Position numbers and translations under genes: made by a program. Shown one piece after another: positions 14 to 22,553 of a DNA stretch of 22,559 nt. The DNA comes from a virus, in the IMG/VR virus record IMGVR_UViG_3300042465_002049, positions 1-22,559 of that record. One strand, given 5' to 3'. How positions within the stretch are numbered: position 1 is the first letter of the stretch; every line of letters begins with the position of its first letter. The notes under the pieces are model-generated. The model was not told the origin of the DNA. It saw only the letters and a program-made list of their open reading frames with translations, and ran no database searches.

Positions 14-1513
14 GTGGCTGATATCATCACTCCTAACGCTAAATTAGCACTCATTACTCCTACCAGAAACAACTGGTCGGATGCTGCTAATAAGAATTTT
101 GAAGCGATTGATGCTATTATTGGCACGTACTTCATTATCAATCAGTTGCAGGGACCGTGGACTAATTCTACGGTCTACGCTGTAAATGATACTGTTATTG
201 ATTCCGTCACTAGTTCTGTTTGGACGGCATTAGTAGCACATACTTCTGCTGCTATTCCTACTACGTTTGCACAAGATCGTGCTGCAAATAGTTCGTATTG
301 GGCAACGTATGCTGCACCTGCTACGGCTCGTGGTGTATGGACTATTAATACACAGTACAAGTTGAATGACTTTGTTGTATCAGGCGCACAGTATGCTATC
401 TGCATAGCTTCGCATACATCAGGAGCTACGTTTGCTGCTGATTTGGCGTTGGGTAAGTGGTCTGTGCTGATTGATCTGTCTACAGTCAGTAGCACGATCA
501 TGCCCGCACCTAGTGGTGGTGATGCTAACAAGTTTACTGTAATCAATGGTACGGGCAGTGGTTATACACTGGTATCATCGAGCAGCGCGTTGTCATTGTT
601 AGGTGGCACTAGTATTGGTATCGGTGTATTGCAAGCAGCTTCTACTGCGGCAGCACGTACTGCGATCAATGCTCAGATTGCTGGTAGTTACCAAGCACAG
701 TCTACGTATCTGTCTGCTATTGCGGGTCTTACTGTTACCGCTAATACGTTTCCCTATTTTAATGCTGGTCCTACTGCATCACTAGGTACAATCTCAACGT
801 ATGGTTTGAGTCTTGTTGATGATGCAAATGCTGCTGCTGCACGTACTACACTAGGACTTGGCACTGCGGCTGTAACGGATACAGGCACAAGTGCAGGAAA
901 CACTGTAGTACTTAATGGCAGTGCTCAACTTCCTGCTGTTGATGGTTCGTTGCTCACTGGCATTGCTTCGGCGTGGGAAACTGGCGATCTTTCTATCAGT
1001 ATGCGTACGTCAAAGAGTGTGGGTTGGGTACTCATTAATGATGGCTCTATTGGCAATGCCGCTAGTGCAGCTACGATGCGAGCGAATGCTGATACGTCTG
1101 CACTCTTTACGTTGTTGTGGACTAATTGCAGTGACGCATTGTGCCCTGTTTCTGGAGGACGAGGTGCAAATGCTGCGGCAGACTTTGCAGCAAACAAGAG
1201 ACTGACTCTTACACCTATGCTTGGTCGTGCATTGATTAATGCTGGTGCGGGCAGTGGTCTTACTACACGTACACTTGGATCGGCATTTGGTGCAGAAACA
1301 GTTAGTGCTCCTGTTGTAAGTCATAGTCATACAGCATGGAATATTATTGCGACTACGCCAAATACTGGTTATGTAGGTGCTGAGCCTTCAATCAACATGC
1401 TTACTGACGCTAGCTTTTCTAATGGAGGTGTAACAGGAACCACCTCTAGCGGTACTAATCCAATGAGCGTAGTTCAGCCGGGCGCTGCTGTAAACGTGTT
1501 TATTCATCTTTAA
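14..1513 (+). CDS. Tail fibre / tail-collar-like protein
   Basis: A 499-residue protein, probably a tail fibre or receptor-binding protein. The N-terminus (about residues 1-40, with NNWSDAANKNFEAID) resembles the attachment regions of phage tail proteins. Residues about 48-98 and 107-153 are two similar modules with the pattern W..N..Y..ND.V......W/Y......HTS, resembling small carbohydrate-binding modules. Residues about 200-315 are the Ala/Thr-rich low-complexity stalk typical of fibres (AAARTTLGLGTAA). The last ~180 residues resemble tail-collar/fibre-tip domains: GWVLINDGSIGNA, a SHSHT motif and the ending NPMSVVQPGAAVNVFIHL. The start is GTG at 14 with GGAG at 2-5. The same frame is open to the left edge, so a longer form cannot be excluded, but the ribosome site fits GTG. 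Another frame ends with TGA at 19-21, so an upstream gene may overlap the start by 8 bases. Role inferred from architecture; no receptor is known. Confidence 0.8.
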   Translation: MADIITPNAKLALITPTRNNWSDAANKNFEAIDAIIGTYFIINQLQGPWTNSTVYAVNDTVIDSVTSSVWTALVAHTSAAIPTTFAQDRAANSSYWATYAAPATARGVWTINTQYKLNDFVVSGAQYAICIASHTSGATFAADLALGKWSVLIDLSTVSSTIMPAPSGGDANKFTVINGTGSGYTLVSSSSALSLLGGTSIGIGVLQAASTAAARTAINAQIAGSYQAQSTYLSAIAGLTVTANTFPYFNAGPTASLGTISTYGLSLVDDANAAAARTTLGLGTAAVTDTGTSAGNTVVLNGSAQLPAVDGSLLTGIASAWETGDLSISMRTSKSVGWVLINDGSIGNAASAATMRANADTSALFTLLWTNCSDALCPVSGGRGANAAADFAANKRLTLTPMLGRALINAGAGSGLTTRTLGSAFGAETVSAPVVSHSHTAWNIIATTPNTGYVGAEPSINMLTDASFSNGGVTGTTSSGTNPMSVVQPGAAVNVFIHL

Positions 1514-11701: not shown

Positions 11702-12072
11702 GAATCAAGTGTCTCTCTGATGTTGAAGATTGATTTTTTGTCAAGCATCAATCGAGCGTTGGCACCTACAGCATCAGGCATTGCATTAATCATTGACATA
11801 AGTGTTTCAATGAATGCTTGCATGTCAGCATCGAATGTAATTTCTTCATTGTATTCAGCTAGTGCCATTGCAGTAGTAACTACATCAAATGCGTACGTGA
11901 GTACAGCAGTAGCAATGTGTCGTGGCTGTAGTTGTCGTGCGTACAAGAATGGAAGCGTTGCATTGTACATTGCATCGTACACTTCCGTATAAGGGAAGTC
12001 TATGTTCTTGCTCTTGGATTGATCGATAGTAATGTCACGATAGAATGCAGTAGGTTCCTTGATATCAGACAT
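11698..12072 (-). CDS. Hypothetical protein (124 aa)
   Basis: A mostly helical protein of unknown function. The best start is ATG at 12072 (MSDIKEPTAFYRD), with AAAAGG 9 bases upstream; a TTG at 12090 in the same frame would add 6 residues but lacks a good ribosome site. It overlaps the polymerase stop by 8 bases (ATGTCTGA), and its own stop overlaps the ATPase GTG start (GTGA). Being placed between the polymerase and the DUF3987 ATPase, it may help one of them; no motif supports a specific role. Confidence 0.75.
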   Translation of the reverse strand: MSDIKEPTAFYRDITIDQSKSKNIDFPYTEVYDAMYNATLPFLYARQLQPRHIATAVLTYAFDVVTTAMALAEYNEEITFDADMQAFIETLMSMINAMPDAVGANARLMLDKKSIFNIRETLDS

Positions 12073-14539
12073 GGAGCTTAACCTTTTCAATTGTGGACCA
12101 ACGATGTATCCCTGTCTTATCAGGCTTGCTCAATCCCGGTTCAGCCGGAATGATTAGTTCTTTGCCGTGTACCATGATAGGCTCTTGAGCGTGCTTAATC
12201 ATGATTCTCATAACTTTGGCACGATCTTCGAGCTTGGCAGTAGCGACCAGAGCGTCATGTATATTGATAGTGATCGAAGCTGCTAAACTTCCGTCATCGT
12301 TACGCGGCCATTCTGCATCCTCGTAGCACAGATACATAGTTCTGCATACTTTATCCCCAATCGTGGACTGAGGATCGAATGCCACGATAGACTTAAGGGC
12401 TTCTTCGTTACCCTCAACCCTTTCGAGAAGTATCCAACGTCGTCCGTATGCATTGTATAACTTCTGCTCCTTAATAGCCTTATCAATCAGAGCCGACCAC
12501 GCAGCAGAGACTTCGGGGAAAGCCGAATGATATAATCTGTGGGCGCGCATCGCATCCAGCAAAGGAATTTGTGCTGACTGTGCGAGTCCATCTGGTTGAA
12601 GGCGATAGTTAAGTCCATGCACACACCGCTTGGACTTATAACGTAGAGTAGGGCGATGTTGATCGTCGAAGTCGTAGGTGGGTACATCTTCGTATGCAAC
12701 TTTGAAGATATCAACTGCATTCGCGCGATGAATGTCGTAGGATGAATCAACCATCGCACGGTCGAAGTTAGCCATGAGACGTTTGACTTTCCATTTGTAT
12801 GCAACGTACATGGCCTCCGCTTGTTTGAGGTCGAAGTATACAAAGCCATAGCCACGAGGGGCTATGAACATTTCTTTGGCACGACCCGGTATGTTTTGTA
12901 GATTTCCTCCGGTACCGATGAGTGTCTGAGCTGAGGATAACCTACCGGGAGCAGACTGTACACCGTACTGCTTCCACTCACAGCGCCAACGTCCATCCTC
13001 GTCGGTCTTTGCTCTAGTATACGTAGAGACGAACTTGAATTCCTTTCTGTACTCATCAATTGCTTTGAGCATTTCGCGCGCAGCAGGTGGAGTAGACGGG
13101 TGCATGAGGATAGCGTGCCTGTTTTTTTCATCTGTCTTACGTCCACGTCCCTGTAGCTTAAGATCAGTGAAGTATAGCTTTGCAAGTTGCTTAGGTGAGT
13201 TGAGAGTCTTATCAGTAATGGGATAGTTAGGATCACCAGTTGCAACGTAGATCATTTCGTGAATCTTGTTCTGCATAACGTCGAGTTGTGCAGTCAAGTC
13301 AGTGTTGATCTTCTCACGTAGTGTGTCATCTACAAGGATACCGTTAGCTGTCATCTCTACTAGATGAGGCTGTAGCTTCATGACGTGTCCGTAGTAGAAG
13401 TCTTTCAAGCCAGCAGATGCTAGCTCTTGATCCATCTTCTCCCACACACGGCGTGTGATACAGATATCCTTTACGTTGTACTCCCAAAATTTATTGATGT
13501 CCCCCACAGTTCTCCAAGTATCAACTTCATCTTTGTAGTAAGGGTGCTCTGTATACTGTGTCGTGAGAAATCCGAGATTGTGCGGAAGTGCTGGATATAG
13601 AGTATGGTGGGCCAGCAATGTGTCTGCGTATACGTTGCGGATTCTAAGTCTATCCTTAAGCCAAAGCCAATAGGCGTCGAAATTTCCATTCTGTCCGATA
13701 AGACGGACATTGGGATCAGCAAACAGGCGTGCGATAGCAATTCGTATCTCAGTCTCTTCTGGTACGGTATAGACGGAGCGCTCACTGTCACGAAACGCAA
13801 TACACATCCCAGAATGGTTGTCATTAGTTAGACCTATGCACGCTGTCTCTTGGTTGATGGTTTCGATGTCGAAGGAGATAGGCTTACCTCCATCTTTGAC
13901 CATTCGTATGTAGTCAAGTGCGGCTTGTTTTGTGGGGTTGATGATTGGCTCGATGACGTACTCTTTGTATCGTCCTTCGATAACACGCTTGAATCGTCCA
14001 ATATCTGATTTGAATGTAAGCTCTTTGCTAGGCTCTCGAAGAATGTATGCAGGATTATACGCGATAAGAAGGCGTCCGTCAGTTCCGAAGCCGGAATCTT
14101 TTGAGTATGTAAAGGTACTACCCCTCCACTTCTCGACGCCACTATATCCCGCAACAGCTTTGCAAGCGTAGCCACCGAGAAGTAGAATGTATTTCCCGTT
14201 AATGAGATTGGATAGTTCATACCGTAGTATCGATTCCCAGTGCGCCAACTCACCAATGCTGATGGCTTCGTCTTTAGAATCGGATTTTTTGTCGAGTTTT
14301 CGTTTGATAACATTAGTGACGTAGCACTGATTACGTGTGATACCAATCTTAGCAAGCTCTTGCCAGAGATATCGCCCAGCGTTACCGATAAGCGGGATTT
14401 TAGACTGTACTTCTGTGTCACCGGGCGCCTCTGATATGATAATATACTGTGCAGTAGGGCTTCCACTTCCTGCGCATTGTAGTTGTAGTCCTATAGCATC
14501 ACAGCGCCGCTGGATTTCAGCCTGCATGTCATAGTTCAT
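12065..14539 (-). CDS. DNA polymerase I with N-terminal uracil-DNA-glycosylase-like domain
   Basis: An 824-residue replicative polymerase with three parts. Residues about 28-192 resemble family-4-like uracil-DNA glycosylase: SEAPGD (E37), IPLIGNAG, YVTNVIKR (N76), LLLGGYACKAV, and YNPAYILRE, where the usual His of the HP(S/A) motif is N162. Residues about 218-375 are a DnaQ-like 3'-5' exonuclease: D224-I-E226, NGNFD (to D288), and YNVKD. The rest is a PolA catalytic core: motif A YFDLKQAEAM, motif B RYKSKRCVHGLNYR, motif C INIHDALVA. Motif C reads HDA rather than HDE. SPO1-type polymerases are known with a similar UDG-like domain. AAGGA precedes ATG 14539 by 7 bases, and the gene starts 3 bases after the MazG-like gene stop. 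Expected role: phage genome replication with proofreading. Confidence 0.93.
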   Translation of the reverse strand: MNYDMQAEIQRRCDAIGLQLQCAGSGSPTAQYIIISEAPGDTEVQSKIPLIGNAGRYLWQELAKIGITRNQCYVTNVIKRKLDKKSDSKDEAISIGELAHWESILRYELSNLINGKYILLLGGYACKAVAGYSGVEKWRGSTFTYSKDSGFGTDGRLLIAYNPAYILREPSKELTFKSDIGRFKRVIEGRYKEYVIEPIINPTKQAALDYIRMVKDGGKPISFDIETINQETACIGLTNDNHSGMCIAFRDSERSVYTVPEETEIRIAIARLFADPNVRLIGQNGNFDAYWLWLKDRLRIRNVYADTLLAHHTLYPALPHNLGFLTTQYTEHPYYKDEVDTWRTVGDINKFWEYNVKDICITRRVWEKMDQELASAGLKDFYYGHVMKLQPHLVEMTANGILVDDTLREKINTDLTAQLDVMQNKIHEMIYVATGDPNYPITDKTLNSPKQLAKLYFTDLKLQGRGRKTDEKNRHAILMHPSTPPAAREMLKAIDEYRKEFKFVSTYTRAKTDEDGRWRCEWKQYGVQSAPGRLSSAQTLIGTGGNLQNIPGRAKEMFIAPRGYGFVYFDLKQAEAMYVAYKWKVKRLMANFDRAMVDSSYDIHRANAVDIFKVAYEDVPTYDFDDQHRPTLRYKSKRCVHGLNYRLQPDGLAQSAQIPLLDAMRAHRLYHSAFPEVSAAWSALIDKAIKEQKLYNAYGRRWILLERVEGNEEALKSIVAFDPQSTIGDKVCRTMYLCYEDAEWPRNDDGSLAASITINIHDALVATAKLEDRAKVMRIMIKHAQEPIMVHGKELIIPAEPGLSKPDKTGIHRWSTIEKVKLHV

Positions 14540-16880: not shown

Positions 16881-17028
16881 TACGATATGTACCCTTCATG
16901 TTACTTGCGATAAATGAGCGCAAGTCATCAACCGTAGAGAACGTGTGCAGCATTATGCGCCCATCGTTATACTCTACGGTACACTGTATCATTTCGTCGT
17001 CAAGGTTTATCGGATTTGAGATAATCAT
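16795..17028 (-). CDS. Small hypothetical protein (77 aa) overlapping the helicase start
   Basis: A 77-residue protein with no recognised family. The first ~55 residues (MIQCTVEYNDGRIMLHTFSTVDDLRSFI) read like a small alpha/beta fold. The last ~28 codons overlap the helicase gene in another frame (86 bases). The start ATG 17028 lies inside the upstream gene (29-base overlap), with only a weak AGAAG-type site next to it. The filled gap between helicase and upstream gene supports it being real, but overlaps on both sides lower the certainty. Confidence 0.55.
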   Translation of the reverse strand: MIISNPINLDDEMIQCTVEYNDGRIMLHTFSTVDDLRSFIASNMKGTYRNDYRIADGGSHGIFSGYYPTDARTQSRH

Positions 17029-17266
17029 CTTCTAGTCTCTCTAATTCTTGTGCTACTCTAACAGCACAGAATTTCATAAATGTTCCAAGTTTCAAATCGA
17101 GTTTCTTACATACTCGTTCAATGGATTCTGATTCGAATTTGTTGAGTCTTGCGTATGCGATGGTTGAGTCTGGATGTTTTGAAGAGTATATGCCGTGTCG
17201 TCTAGGCTCATCGAATGGTACTGGTATTGTGATGCTGAGAGGATGTTCGTACTTTTTATCGTTCAT
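17000..17266 (-). CDS. Ribbon-helix-helix-like small protein (88 aa)
   Basis: An 88-residue protein. Residues about 35-78 (TIAYARLNKFESESIERVCKKLDLKLGTFMKFCAVRVAQEL) have the strand-helix-turn-helix rhythm of the RHH/CopG fold: a short strand, helix, 'LDLKLGTF' turn, helix. RHH proteins bind DNA as dimers through the strand. The N-terminus (SITIPVPFDEPRRHGIYSS) is Pro-rich and unlike the fold. GGAG 8 bases before ATG 17266 is a strong site. It lies just after the two hairpins at 17297-17382, so it may be expressed separately from the genes upstream. It may regulate phage transcription, but that is inference. Confidence 0.68.
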   Translation of the reverse strand: MNDKKYEHPLSITIPVPFDEPRRHGIYSSKHPDSTIAYARLNKFESESIERVCKKLDLKLGTFMKFCAVRVAQELERLEDDYLKSDKP

Positions 17267-17296: not shown

Positions 17297-17337
17297 CGGG
17301 GCTAGTGAGCGAAAGGTTAAAACTCTCACTAGCCCCG
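17297..17337 (-). terminator. 13-bp perfect hairpin after the basic-protein gene
   Basis: A perfect 13-bp inverted repeat (cggggctagtgag at 17297-17309 with ctcactagccccg at 17325-17337) around a 15-base loop. On the - strand the stem is followed by TTTCTACATCT, a weak U-rich tail, so this looks like a terminator or attenuator downstream of the 17402-17632 gene and ahead of the RHH-like gene. Confidence 0.7.
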
Positions 17338-17344
17338 CCCTCTT

Positions 17345-17382
17345 AGTAGCGCCAACTTATTCAGGGGAAAAGAGGCACCACT
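17345..17382 (-). other. Upstream 9-bp hairpin with G:U pairs (3' UTR structure)
   Basis: The arms agtagcgcc (17345-17353) and ggcaccact (17374-17382) form a 9-bp stem as - strand RNA with two G:U pairs and a 20-base loop. On the + strand the two non-Watson-Crick positions would be A:C mismatches, so the fold belongs to the - strand transcript. It lies 7 bases from the perfect hairpin, giving two tandem stem-loops behind the 17402-17632 gene. Confidence 0.45.
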
Positions 17383-17401
17383 TAGAATACTACAAAACTA
17401 A

Positions 17402-17632
17402 TTACGCAGCCGGAGCATCCGACTTCTTACCGACCGGAGCCGGGAGCATGACACGCTTGAAGAACAGCTTGACGCCATTCTTAGCAGCGTTATCAACCGC
17501 ATCCATAGCGTCATCGCCGTTACGCGCAAACGTCGGCTCGCCCTGAATCTCGACTTCCGACAGAAGATAGAGACGCTTCGCCTTGGCCGAACGAGTACGC
17601 TTCTTGCCGCCTTCCGTGGGAGACTTAGCCAT
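17402..17632 (-). CDS. Small basic protein (76 aa), probably highly expressed
   Basis: A 76-residue protein of no family I recognise. The N-terminal ~20 residues are strongly basic (GGKKRTRSAKAKR), followed by a compact alpha/beta-looking part (YLLSEVEIQGEPTFARNGDD, AVDNAAKNGVKLFFKRVMLP) and an Ala/Pro tail. The basic tail suggests nucleic-acid binding. Codons are rich in C/G at third positions, unlike neighbouring genes, matching only the SSB-like gene; this suggests strong expression. AAGGA 8 bases before ATG 17632 is a good site. It has its own apparent promoter (17727-17755), a 5' hairpin, and two hairpins behind it, so it may be a one-gene transcript. A DNA-binding or host-takeover role is possible but not shown. 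Confidence 0.75.
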   Translation of the reverse strand: MAKSPTEGGKKRTRSAKAKRLYLLSEVEIQGEPTFARNGDDAMDAVDNAAKNGVKLFFKRVMLPAPVGKKSDAPAA

Positions 17633-17675
17633 TTTGGTGTTCCTTAAATGATTGATGTTATTGAATTATAAGAGC

Positions 17676-17722
17676 GTGTCGGATAGGGAGGATGGTGTTC
17701 TGAAACGCTCCCCACCCGACAC
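17676..17722 (-). promoter_or_regulatory. 5' leader hairpin, 15 bp
   Basis: The arms 17676-17690 (gtgtcggatagggag) and 17708-17722 (ctccccacccgacac) form a 15-bp stem as - strand RNA, with two G:U pairs and a 17-base loop; on the + strand the same two positions are A:C mismatches. It begins within a few bases of the transcription start predicted from the promoter at 17727-17755, so the RNA would start with a stem. Such 5' stems are known to shield mRNA from 5'-end-dependent decay. It could instead mark the end of the SSB-like transcript, though no U-run follows. Confidence 0.65.
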
Positions 17723-17726
17723 ACCT

Positions 17727-17755
17727 TATATACGCTCTCTGTTACGCTAGGTCAA
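17727..17755 (-). promoter_or_regulatory. Sigma70-like promoter for the 76-aa gene
   Basis: On the - strand, TTGACC (17755-17750), a 17-base spacer and TATATA (17732-17727) make a near-consensus sigma70 promoter. The predicted start is around 17720. It lies in the gap after the SSB-like gene and reads into the 76-aa gene. Confidence 0.65.
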
Positions 17756-17772: not shown

Positions 17773-18210
17773 TTACGCTGCCTCGACAGCCTTGATTTCG
17801 TGACGGTTCTGCCCCTCATAGACGGTGTGAGCAATCTCAATCGTAGCCTCACGACCGATCCAATCGTTGAGGTCAATACGGCGACCGGCAGGCGCACCAA
17901 TAGCCTGTAGGAACCGCTTCAGCCCGAACATGCCCATCGGGTTAGCCTCAAGCGACACGCGCCTGTAGACCACCTTAGTACCGTCCGGAGCGCCATCCGT
18001 GTAGTCCATCGGATACTGATCCGAAGGCACAAGGAAGGTAACGGCAGCATACTTAGTACCCTTCGCTACGGAAGTCATCTTCTTAGCTTCAACGATGGAA
18101 GCGTGATACTTCTTAATAGGAAGCGGAGACGGAGCCTTAGCGTTAGCAATGTCATCCTGATACTCAATGACGCTATCGATCTCGTCGTTCTCAATCTGAT
18201 TGTCAGCCAT
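17773..18210 (-). CDS. SSB-like single-stranded DNA-binding protein
   Basis: A 145-residue protein. After an acidic N-terminus (residues 1-25) the pattern fits phage SSB-like OB-fold proteins found beside Sak4 recombinases: YHASIVEAKKMTSVAKGTKYAAVTF, a middle with VVYRRVSLEANPMGMFGLKRFLQAIGAP, and a closing DLNDWIGREATIEIAHTVYEGQNRHEIKAVEA, in which G.E..I....Y.G..R..IK is typical. It would coat ssDNA in replication and recombination. The acidic tail seen at the C-terminus of bacterial SSBs is absent, while the N-terminus is acidic. Codon use is more G/C-ending than its neighbours, suggesting high expression. AGGA lies 8 bases before ATG 18210. Confidence 0.7.
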   Translation of the reverse strand: MADNQIENDEIDSVIEYQDDIANAKAPSPLPIKKYHASIVEAKKMTSVAKGTKYAAVTFLVPSDQYPMDYTDGAPDGTKVVYRRVSLEANPMGMFGLKRFLQAIGAPAGRRIDLNDWIGREATIEIAHTVYEGQNRHEIKAVEAA

Positions 18211-21886: not shown

Positions 21887-22090
21887 TTACTTTGTCAGTT
21901 CGCGTGCAGCGTACACGATCTTGGCCTTGGTGCCCTTAATACGATCATTAATGATCTGTAGCGTATCTTCCTCACGCATAAGCTTAGCGCGTGCGCTAGT
22001 GAGGCGTGCGATAGTAAGACCACGCTTCTTTTCGTCAGCTTCTAGCTCGTCCTGAAGCTGGCCCATGTCAATGTCATTGCTCTTGACCAT
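21887..22090 (-). CDS. Small coiled-coil protein (67 aa)
   Basis: A 67-residue charged, helical protein (MVKSNDIDMGQLQDELEADE and on to IVYAARELTK), probably a coiled coil. The frame is open further upstream, but ATG 22090 has an AAGGA 8 bases before it and removes the overlap with most of the HNH gene, leaving 17 bases. Function unknown. Confidence 0.72.
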   Translation of the reverse strand: MVKSNDIDMGQLQDELEADEKKRGLTIARLTSARAKLMREEDTLQIINDRIKGTKAKIVYAARELTK

Positions 22091-22553
22091 CTTTGTGTTC
22101 CTTTCGACGTTTGTTACGATAGTCTGTATTGATATCAGTAACAGCTTGTCTACTAATCTTACGTTCAAACTGAAACGATACACGATCAGCAATGCGCTGA
22201 TGTGTGAGGTCCGTGTCAGTTAGTAAGTGTATTATAGCACTAATCATGTCTTGAGTCAAACCAAAGCGCCCACTTTCTACCGCATCATTCATGTTGTCTT
22301 GGTGAGTACCGGGTTTCATGTGATGATAGTTGCCACATAGATTGTTATTACAAACTACATGGCGAATAAGTCTAGGATCATCGAGCGGAAAGTCCTTGGG
22401 ATGAATAACATGGTACACAACACGATGCCCGTAGTAACTCTTGCCATTGTAAGAGAATACTGCAATGCCTTTTCCATTCAGTGCGTACTCTTTTACCTTC
22501 CAAGGCCAGCATAGTTCTATGTGTATCTTGCCATCATTCAAACCGCCAGTCAT
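22074..22553 (-). CDS. HNH homing-type endonuclease
   Basis: A 159-residue protein. The HNH core is clear: HRVVYHVIHP (about residues 43-52), then DPRLIRHVVCNNNLCGNYHHMKPGTHQDNM, which matches the HNH_3 pattern R.V...H....NP.HL..GT...N. The C-terminal part (QRIADRVSFQFERKISRQAVTDI) looks like a helix-turn-helix/NUMOD-type DNA-binding region. Such genes are usually free-standing selfish elements in phage genomes, or act in DNA packaging. ATG 22553 is only 6 bases from the window end and the frame stays open, so the true start may lie outside. Confidence 0.88.
   Translation of the reverse strand: MTGGLNDGKIHIELCWPWKVKEYALNGKGIAVFSYNGKSYYGHRVVYHVIHPKDFPLDDPRLIRHVVCNNNLCGNYHHMKPGTHQDNMNDAVESGRFGLTQDMISAIIHLLTDTDLTHQRIADRVSFQFERKISRQAVTDINTDYRNKRRKEHKDGQEQ

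Follow-up and report, generated by a model that had tools for sequence, protein, structure and literature searches.

A small gene on the - strand of virus record IMGVR_UViG_3300042465_002049 (22,559 bases, analysed over its full length and called here the window) probably forms a high-output unit with a transcript of its own, behind which termination is leaky or the 3' end is processed. The first-pass annotation had proposed a self-contained, strongly expressed unit, and a conserved promoter, compensated stems, an excess of G-U pairs, synteny and codon usage all agree with that proposal, but the hairpin at the 5' end of the message is confined to the window's clade.

In the proposed mechanism, host RNA polymerase would start at an embedded sigma70-type promoter near 17720, and in the window's clade a stable hairpin at the start of the message would protect its 5' end, and behind it would come an open, A/U-rich leader bearing a good ribosome site. 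Two hairpins behind the gene would end most transcripts as a leaky terminator, or would both define and protect a processed 3' end, and leftover read-through would supply the genes for the ribbon-helix-helix (RHH) protein, helicase, kinase and polymerase at low level. The outcome would be much small protein and little downstream product, as with T4 gene 32. The steps for which the sequences argue are the conserved promoter, the action of the hairpins as coding-strand RNA, the conserved ORF, and a codon bias suggestive of high translation.

Layout and genomic setting of the unit

Every element listed by the first-pass annotation was recovered at its position on the - strand (Table 1). The 5' stem pairs 17722-17708 with 17690-17676 (15 bp, two G-U pairs), and reaches 18 bp when extended to 17725/17673. 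The folding energy of the 443-nt stretch is -164.6 kcal/mol (z = -4.55; 0 of 100 shuffles as good), and the 5' stem and the perfect 3' stem, each of which beat all 60 shuffles of its gap, rank first and second among the inverted repeats of the whole window. The U-tract after the 13-bp stem is weak (TTTCTACATC), so termination there may be poor, and this stem is absent from the terminator-scan list.

Table 1. Features of the unit and its two neighbours, in window positions.
Feature	Position	Strand	Description
Promoter	17727..17755	-	sigma70-type TTGACC-17-TATATA; predicted start near 17720
Promoter boxes	TTGACC 17755-17750; 17-nt spacer; TATATA 17732-17727	-	
5' hairpin	17673..17725	-	15-18 bp; about -5 to +48 relative to predicted start; -31.4 kcal/mol
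Leader	17633..17672	-	A/T-rich; Shine-Dalgarno AAGGA 17645-17641, then ACACC
Small gene	17402..17632	-	76-aa ORF; net charge +6; unnamed family; capsid-like codon usage
First 3' stem	17345..17382	-	9 bp, 17382-17374/17353-17345, with G-U pairs
Second 3' stem	17297..17337	-	perfect 13 bp, 17337-17325/17309-17297; 15-nt loop AGTTTTAACCTTTCG; tail TTTCTACATCT; presumed leaky terminator or 3' processing/stabilising hairpin
DUF669/SSB-like gene, upstream neighbour	17773..18210	-	weak Pfam DUF669 match in relative L007; position kept in relatives
RHH gene, downstream neighbour	17000..17266	-	NikA-like by Pfam in relatives; DUF1778 profile matches

Taken by itself, the window promoter is weak evidence (p about 0.04-0.10 per sequence). 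Two sites of the form TTGACn-16..18-TATAnn occur in the window, the small-gene promoter being one; the other good promoter-like site, TTGACT-17-TATAAT at 22259-22231 (- strand), lies within an ORF at 22074-22553, and a similar site is present in relative G002.

The motif GAACACC occurs in the loop of the 5' stem (17700) and just behind the Shine-Dalgarno sequence (17642) on the - strand, and both copies are kept in the two close relatives; the window's - strand holds three copies only. This repeat is a possible translational operator. Pairing of the 3' loop with the ribosome site, judged by eye, gave just 4-5 pairs and was dismissed.

The unit lies among the DNA-replication genes of this uncultured bacterial virus, in the right-hand part of the window. 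There the - strand carries genes for a PD-(D/E)XK nuclease-like protein, a Sak4-like AAA protein, the DUF669/SSB-like protein, the small protein and the RHH protein, and also for a RecD-like helicase, a dNMP kinase, a family A DNA polymerase whose N-terminal domain is UDG-like, and a primase/helicase-like protein. In the polymerase (12065-14539, - strand), the UDG-superfamily domain spans residues 24-172. The DUF669 assignment rests below Pfam's cut-off (E 0.0045 in relative L007). Of 16 relatives, 10 gave a NikA-like Pfam match for the RHH protein (best 1e-6); profile matches to DUF1778 chains were obtained as well, and an RHH protein with a conserved TIPxP N-terminus stands between the small gene and the helicase gene in most lineages (alignment A8).

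Conservation in close and distant relatives

The close relatives are two viral contigs, L002 (93% identical small protein) and L003 (about 75%). Each has the promoter, with -35 and -10 boxes identical to those of the window, the same spacing between the -10 box and the stem, and likewise the 5' stem, the gene and the two 3' stems. Within the 5' stem, both partners differ in two pairs and one partner in several more, yet below the apex almost all pairing survives; compensatory double changes were found in the perfect 3' stem (two, in L003) and in the first 3' stem (in L002 and L003), these counts being small since they come from three sequences only (window, L002 and L003). The 5' loop TCAGAACACC and the 3' loop AGTTTTAACCTTTCG are unchanged in all three, in each of which the 5' stem occupies -5 to +48 relative to the predicted start. 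The 3' loop (17324-17310, - strand) is invariant together with its tail TTTCTACATCT in the three phages, on a stem that varies with compensation.

A strong overall fold and invariant loops would also suit a structured non-coding RNA in which the ORF is incidental, and the first-pass annotation had suggested an RNA with a role of its own. This is extremely improbable: dN/dS of the small gene is about 0.18-0.25 in the window's clade (purifying selection), an indel is in frame, ORFs occupy the same place in relatives, and an Rfam search of the stretch gave no match. The suggestion was dropped on these grounds of coding constraint and the Rfam result.

For distant relatives, the neighbouring DUF669-like protein was used as query and gave 29 loci, from which 26 units in 18 lineages were analysed (lineages grouped by similarity, without a tree). 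An ORF of 62-98 aa lies directly behind the DUF669-like gene in the 26 units, usually followed by an RHH gene and a RecD-like helicase gene, and the order DUF669-like, small gene, (usually) RHH, RecD-like is kept in the 18 lineages. The small proteins are barely alignable and share a pattern of basic or mixed N-terminus, hydrophobic strand, helix and final strand; one profile comparison joins the window's clade to the other lineages (probability 89.5, E 2e-6; a single comparison). MW202455, a published phage genome with a DUF669-like relative, seems to be without the small gene. The order promoter, stem, gene, stem, for which the first-pass annotation proposed a search in relatives, is complete in L002 and L003, and hairpins commonly flank the gene across the 18 lineages, but placement at the 5' end holds only in the window's clade.

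Flanking hairpins and promoters across lineages

Of the 18 lineages, 13 have a hairpin beyond shuffles (p <= 0.05) in the upstream gap, 12 have one immediately downstream and 9 have both, with unrelated sequences. Scores of at least 25 were reached by 76% of upstream and 79% of downstream gaps versus 26% of 34 other gaps (60-150 nt, same contigs), the differences in gap score from these controls having p values of 0.005 and 0.001, respectively. One or both strong hairpins are missing in L053, L038, L036 and L027, with no significant hairpin in L053. In L048, L051, L052 and L053 the next gene follows at once, leaving a gap behind the small gene too short for a hairpin, and L051 and L052 have a strong hairpin behind the RHH gene instead. 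Some of the other gaps carry a hairpin too, for example the one before the DUF669-like gene in L038 and L040; the strong hairpins found before the DUF669/SSB-like gene are at L038:3407-3446, L040:2509-2545 and L052:3405-3444.

Imperfect pairs were counted on the coding strand using one representative per lineage and a scoring in which G-U and A-C are alike. This gave 42 G-U versus 4 A-C pairs (23:3 upstream, 19:1 downstream), where base composition predicts 1.16 to 1; selection therefore acts on the coding-strand RNA, and the hairpins work as RNA and not as DNA operators. Inverted repeats serving as DNA operators for a dimeric regulator, for example the neighbouring RHH protein, would fit the presence of an RHH-type gene next door and the overlap of the repeat with the -35 box in several lineages. 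The 42:4 asymmetry is unexpected for DNA sites, for which symmetry without strand preference would be expected, and the repeats also occur behind the gene, where promoters are not enriched; this reading was rejected on the asymmetry and we regard it as highly unlikely.

Promoter-like sites, called with an E. coli matrix that may not fit the hosts, are jointly enriched in the gaps before the gene in 17 lineages (Fisher p = 0.002) but not in those behind it (0.76), many single predictions being not significant on their own. Measured from the best promoter-like site of each upstream gap, the hairpin reaches from about -60 to about -10 in L030-L032, L039, L046, L054, L051, L052 and L057, where its loop contains or adjoins the -35 box. 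In L048 and L058 it covers the promoter wholly or for the most part, and L056 has a small hairpin at +1 to +15. A hairpin at the 5' end of the transcript, as first annotated, is thus borne out in the window's clade (-5 to +48), but elsewhere it mostly stands before the predicted start. Because the upstream hairpins precede the predicted start in most lineages, outside the window's clade they look like the 3' end of the SSB-like message, and by the predicted promoters a strong stem at the small gene's own 5' end would be particular to the window's clade.

U-rich tails (at least 4 of 8) follow about half of the downstream hairpins, with terminator-like tails in L036, L039, L044 and L054. The downstream hairpins of L039, L046, L054 and L035 combine different stems with a common GAGA tetraloop and a U-G closing pair (UGAGAG); this tetraloop is of GNRA type and is found in two lineages.

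The main rival to a separately transcribed unit is that the hairpins are processing sites of RNase III or RNase E type, of which T7 early RNA and T4 gene 32 are examples, so that one long transcript of the operon is cleaved into stable segments and the promoter within it plays a minor part. Stems of 13-18 bp, the many downstream hairpins with no U-tract (L057, L058, L038) and the RNA function indicated by the G-U excess are all consistent with it, but the enrichment of promoter-like sites in upstream gaps, their full conservation in the clade and the terminator-like tails listed above count against it, and we consider it rather unlikely.

Codon usage, the small protein and known systems

Among 13 contigs with a capsid gene, the small gene is the closest codon match to that gene, among called genes (simple greedy ORF method, used also for the gap controls), in six (G002, G006, G011, G012, G015 and G019; z 3.1-6.7). 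G018 shows a moderate rise in codon bias, and clade 2 (G003-G005), G007, G014 and G016 show no clear one; in 12 of the 13 contigs the small gene has a higher z than its downstream neighbour, and the codon usage of the SSB-like gene is often capsid-like too, in several contigs. In G002, the contig of L003, similarity to the major head gene places the small gene first, the SSB-like gene second and the RHH gene last of the genes tested, and the window's own small gene scores 0.85 against this head gene, the next best window gene scoring 0.73. A codon choice often close to that of the abundant capsid gene makes it probable that the small protein is produced in large amounts. Codon usage is independent support for high translation and is no gauge of mRNA stability.

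The small protein had been described as basic and as possibly DNA- or RNA-binding. Net charge ranges from -1 to +6 across relatives, so basic character is not conserved, and binding to nucleic acid finds no support in a family or fold match. Searches gave no family in Pfam or PHROGs, no convincing match among PDB chains (best E 0.076), and nothing at E<=0.001 in Foldseek with low-confidence AlphaFold models (pLDDT 54 and 64). No sequence or fold similarity to SSB was seen in the same resources (Pfam, PHROG, PDB and the low-confidence fold model), no relative of the small protein was found in phage databases, and no prophage or host relative was found in the genome contigs.

Since the gene adjoins SSB-like and Sak4-like genes, we tentatively favour, at somewhat less than even chances, a stoichiometric accessory of phage DNA replication or recombination. 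Its position, taken with the known Sak4-SSB cooperation (PMC5928155), suggests a partner of SSB/Sak4. As in the phage HK620 module of Sak4 and DUF669 SSB (PMC5928155), an AAA/Sak4-like gene lies upstream of the DUF669-like gene; differences are that the small gene, promoter and hairpins go undescribed in the part of that paper cited here, and that the DUF669 match is below Pfam's cut-off.

The closest functional parallel is T4 gene 32, encoding a replication-module protein (SSB) needed in quantity, whose mRNA is T4's most stable, is processed at conserved sites ahead of its start codon and close to its stop codon, and carries a structured leader with an A+U-rich ribosome-site region after it (PMC3014915). 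Unlike gene 32, the small gene has hairpins where T4 has mapped RNase E sites; it is no homologue, its product is not the SSB, and no pseudoknot is shown. With its stable stem at the predicted 5' end and an open leader behind the stem, the message also resembles those with the 5' stabilisers of ompA and papA (work cited in PMC3997798, refs 92-95). A stem within a few nucleotides of the 5' end, as in ompA, is present in the window, L002 and L003 relative to the predicted start; this placement is clear only in the window's clade, and its stabilising effect is putative here.

Since GAACACC is common to the 5' hairpin's invariant loop and the site behind the Shine-Dalgarno sequence, the small protein might belong to a new family of abundant SSB/replisome partners that repress their own translation by binding the leader, which we hold to be a speculative and improbable reading. 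If true, it would be feedback like that of T4 gp32 in a protein unrelated to gp32.

An unnamed small-protein family thus accompanies SSB-like and Sak4-like genes in many uncultured phages, and in several of them, as codon usage indicates, the protein is probably made at near-capsid level. Proteins at that level are usually central to replication, recombination or host takeover. Hairpin rank, G-U asymmetry and capsid codon similarity together make a simple comparative finder of strongly expressed unknown genes in uncultured phages.
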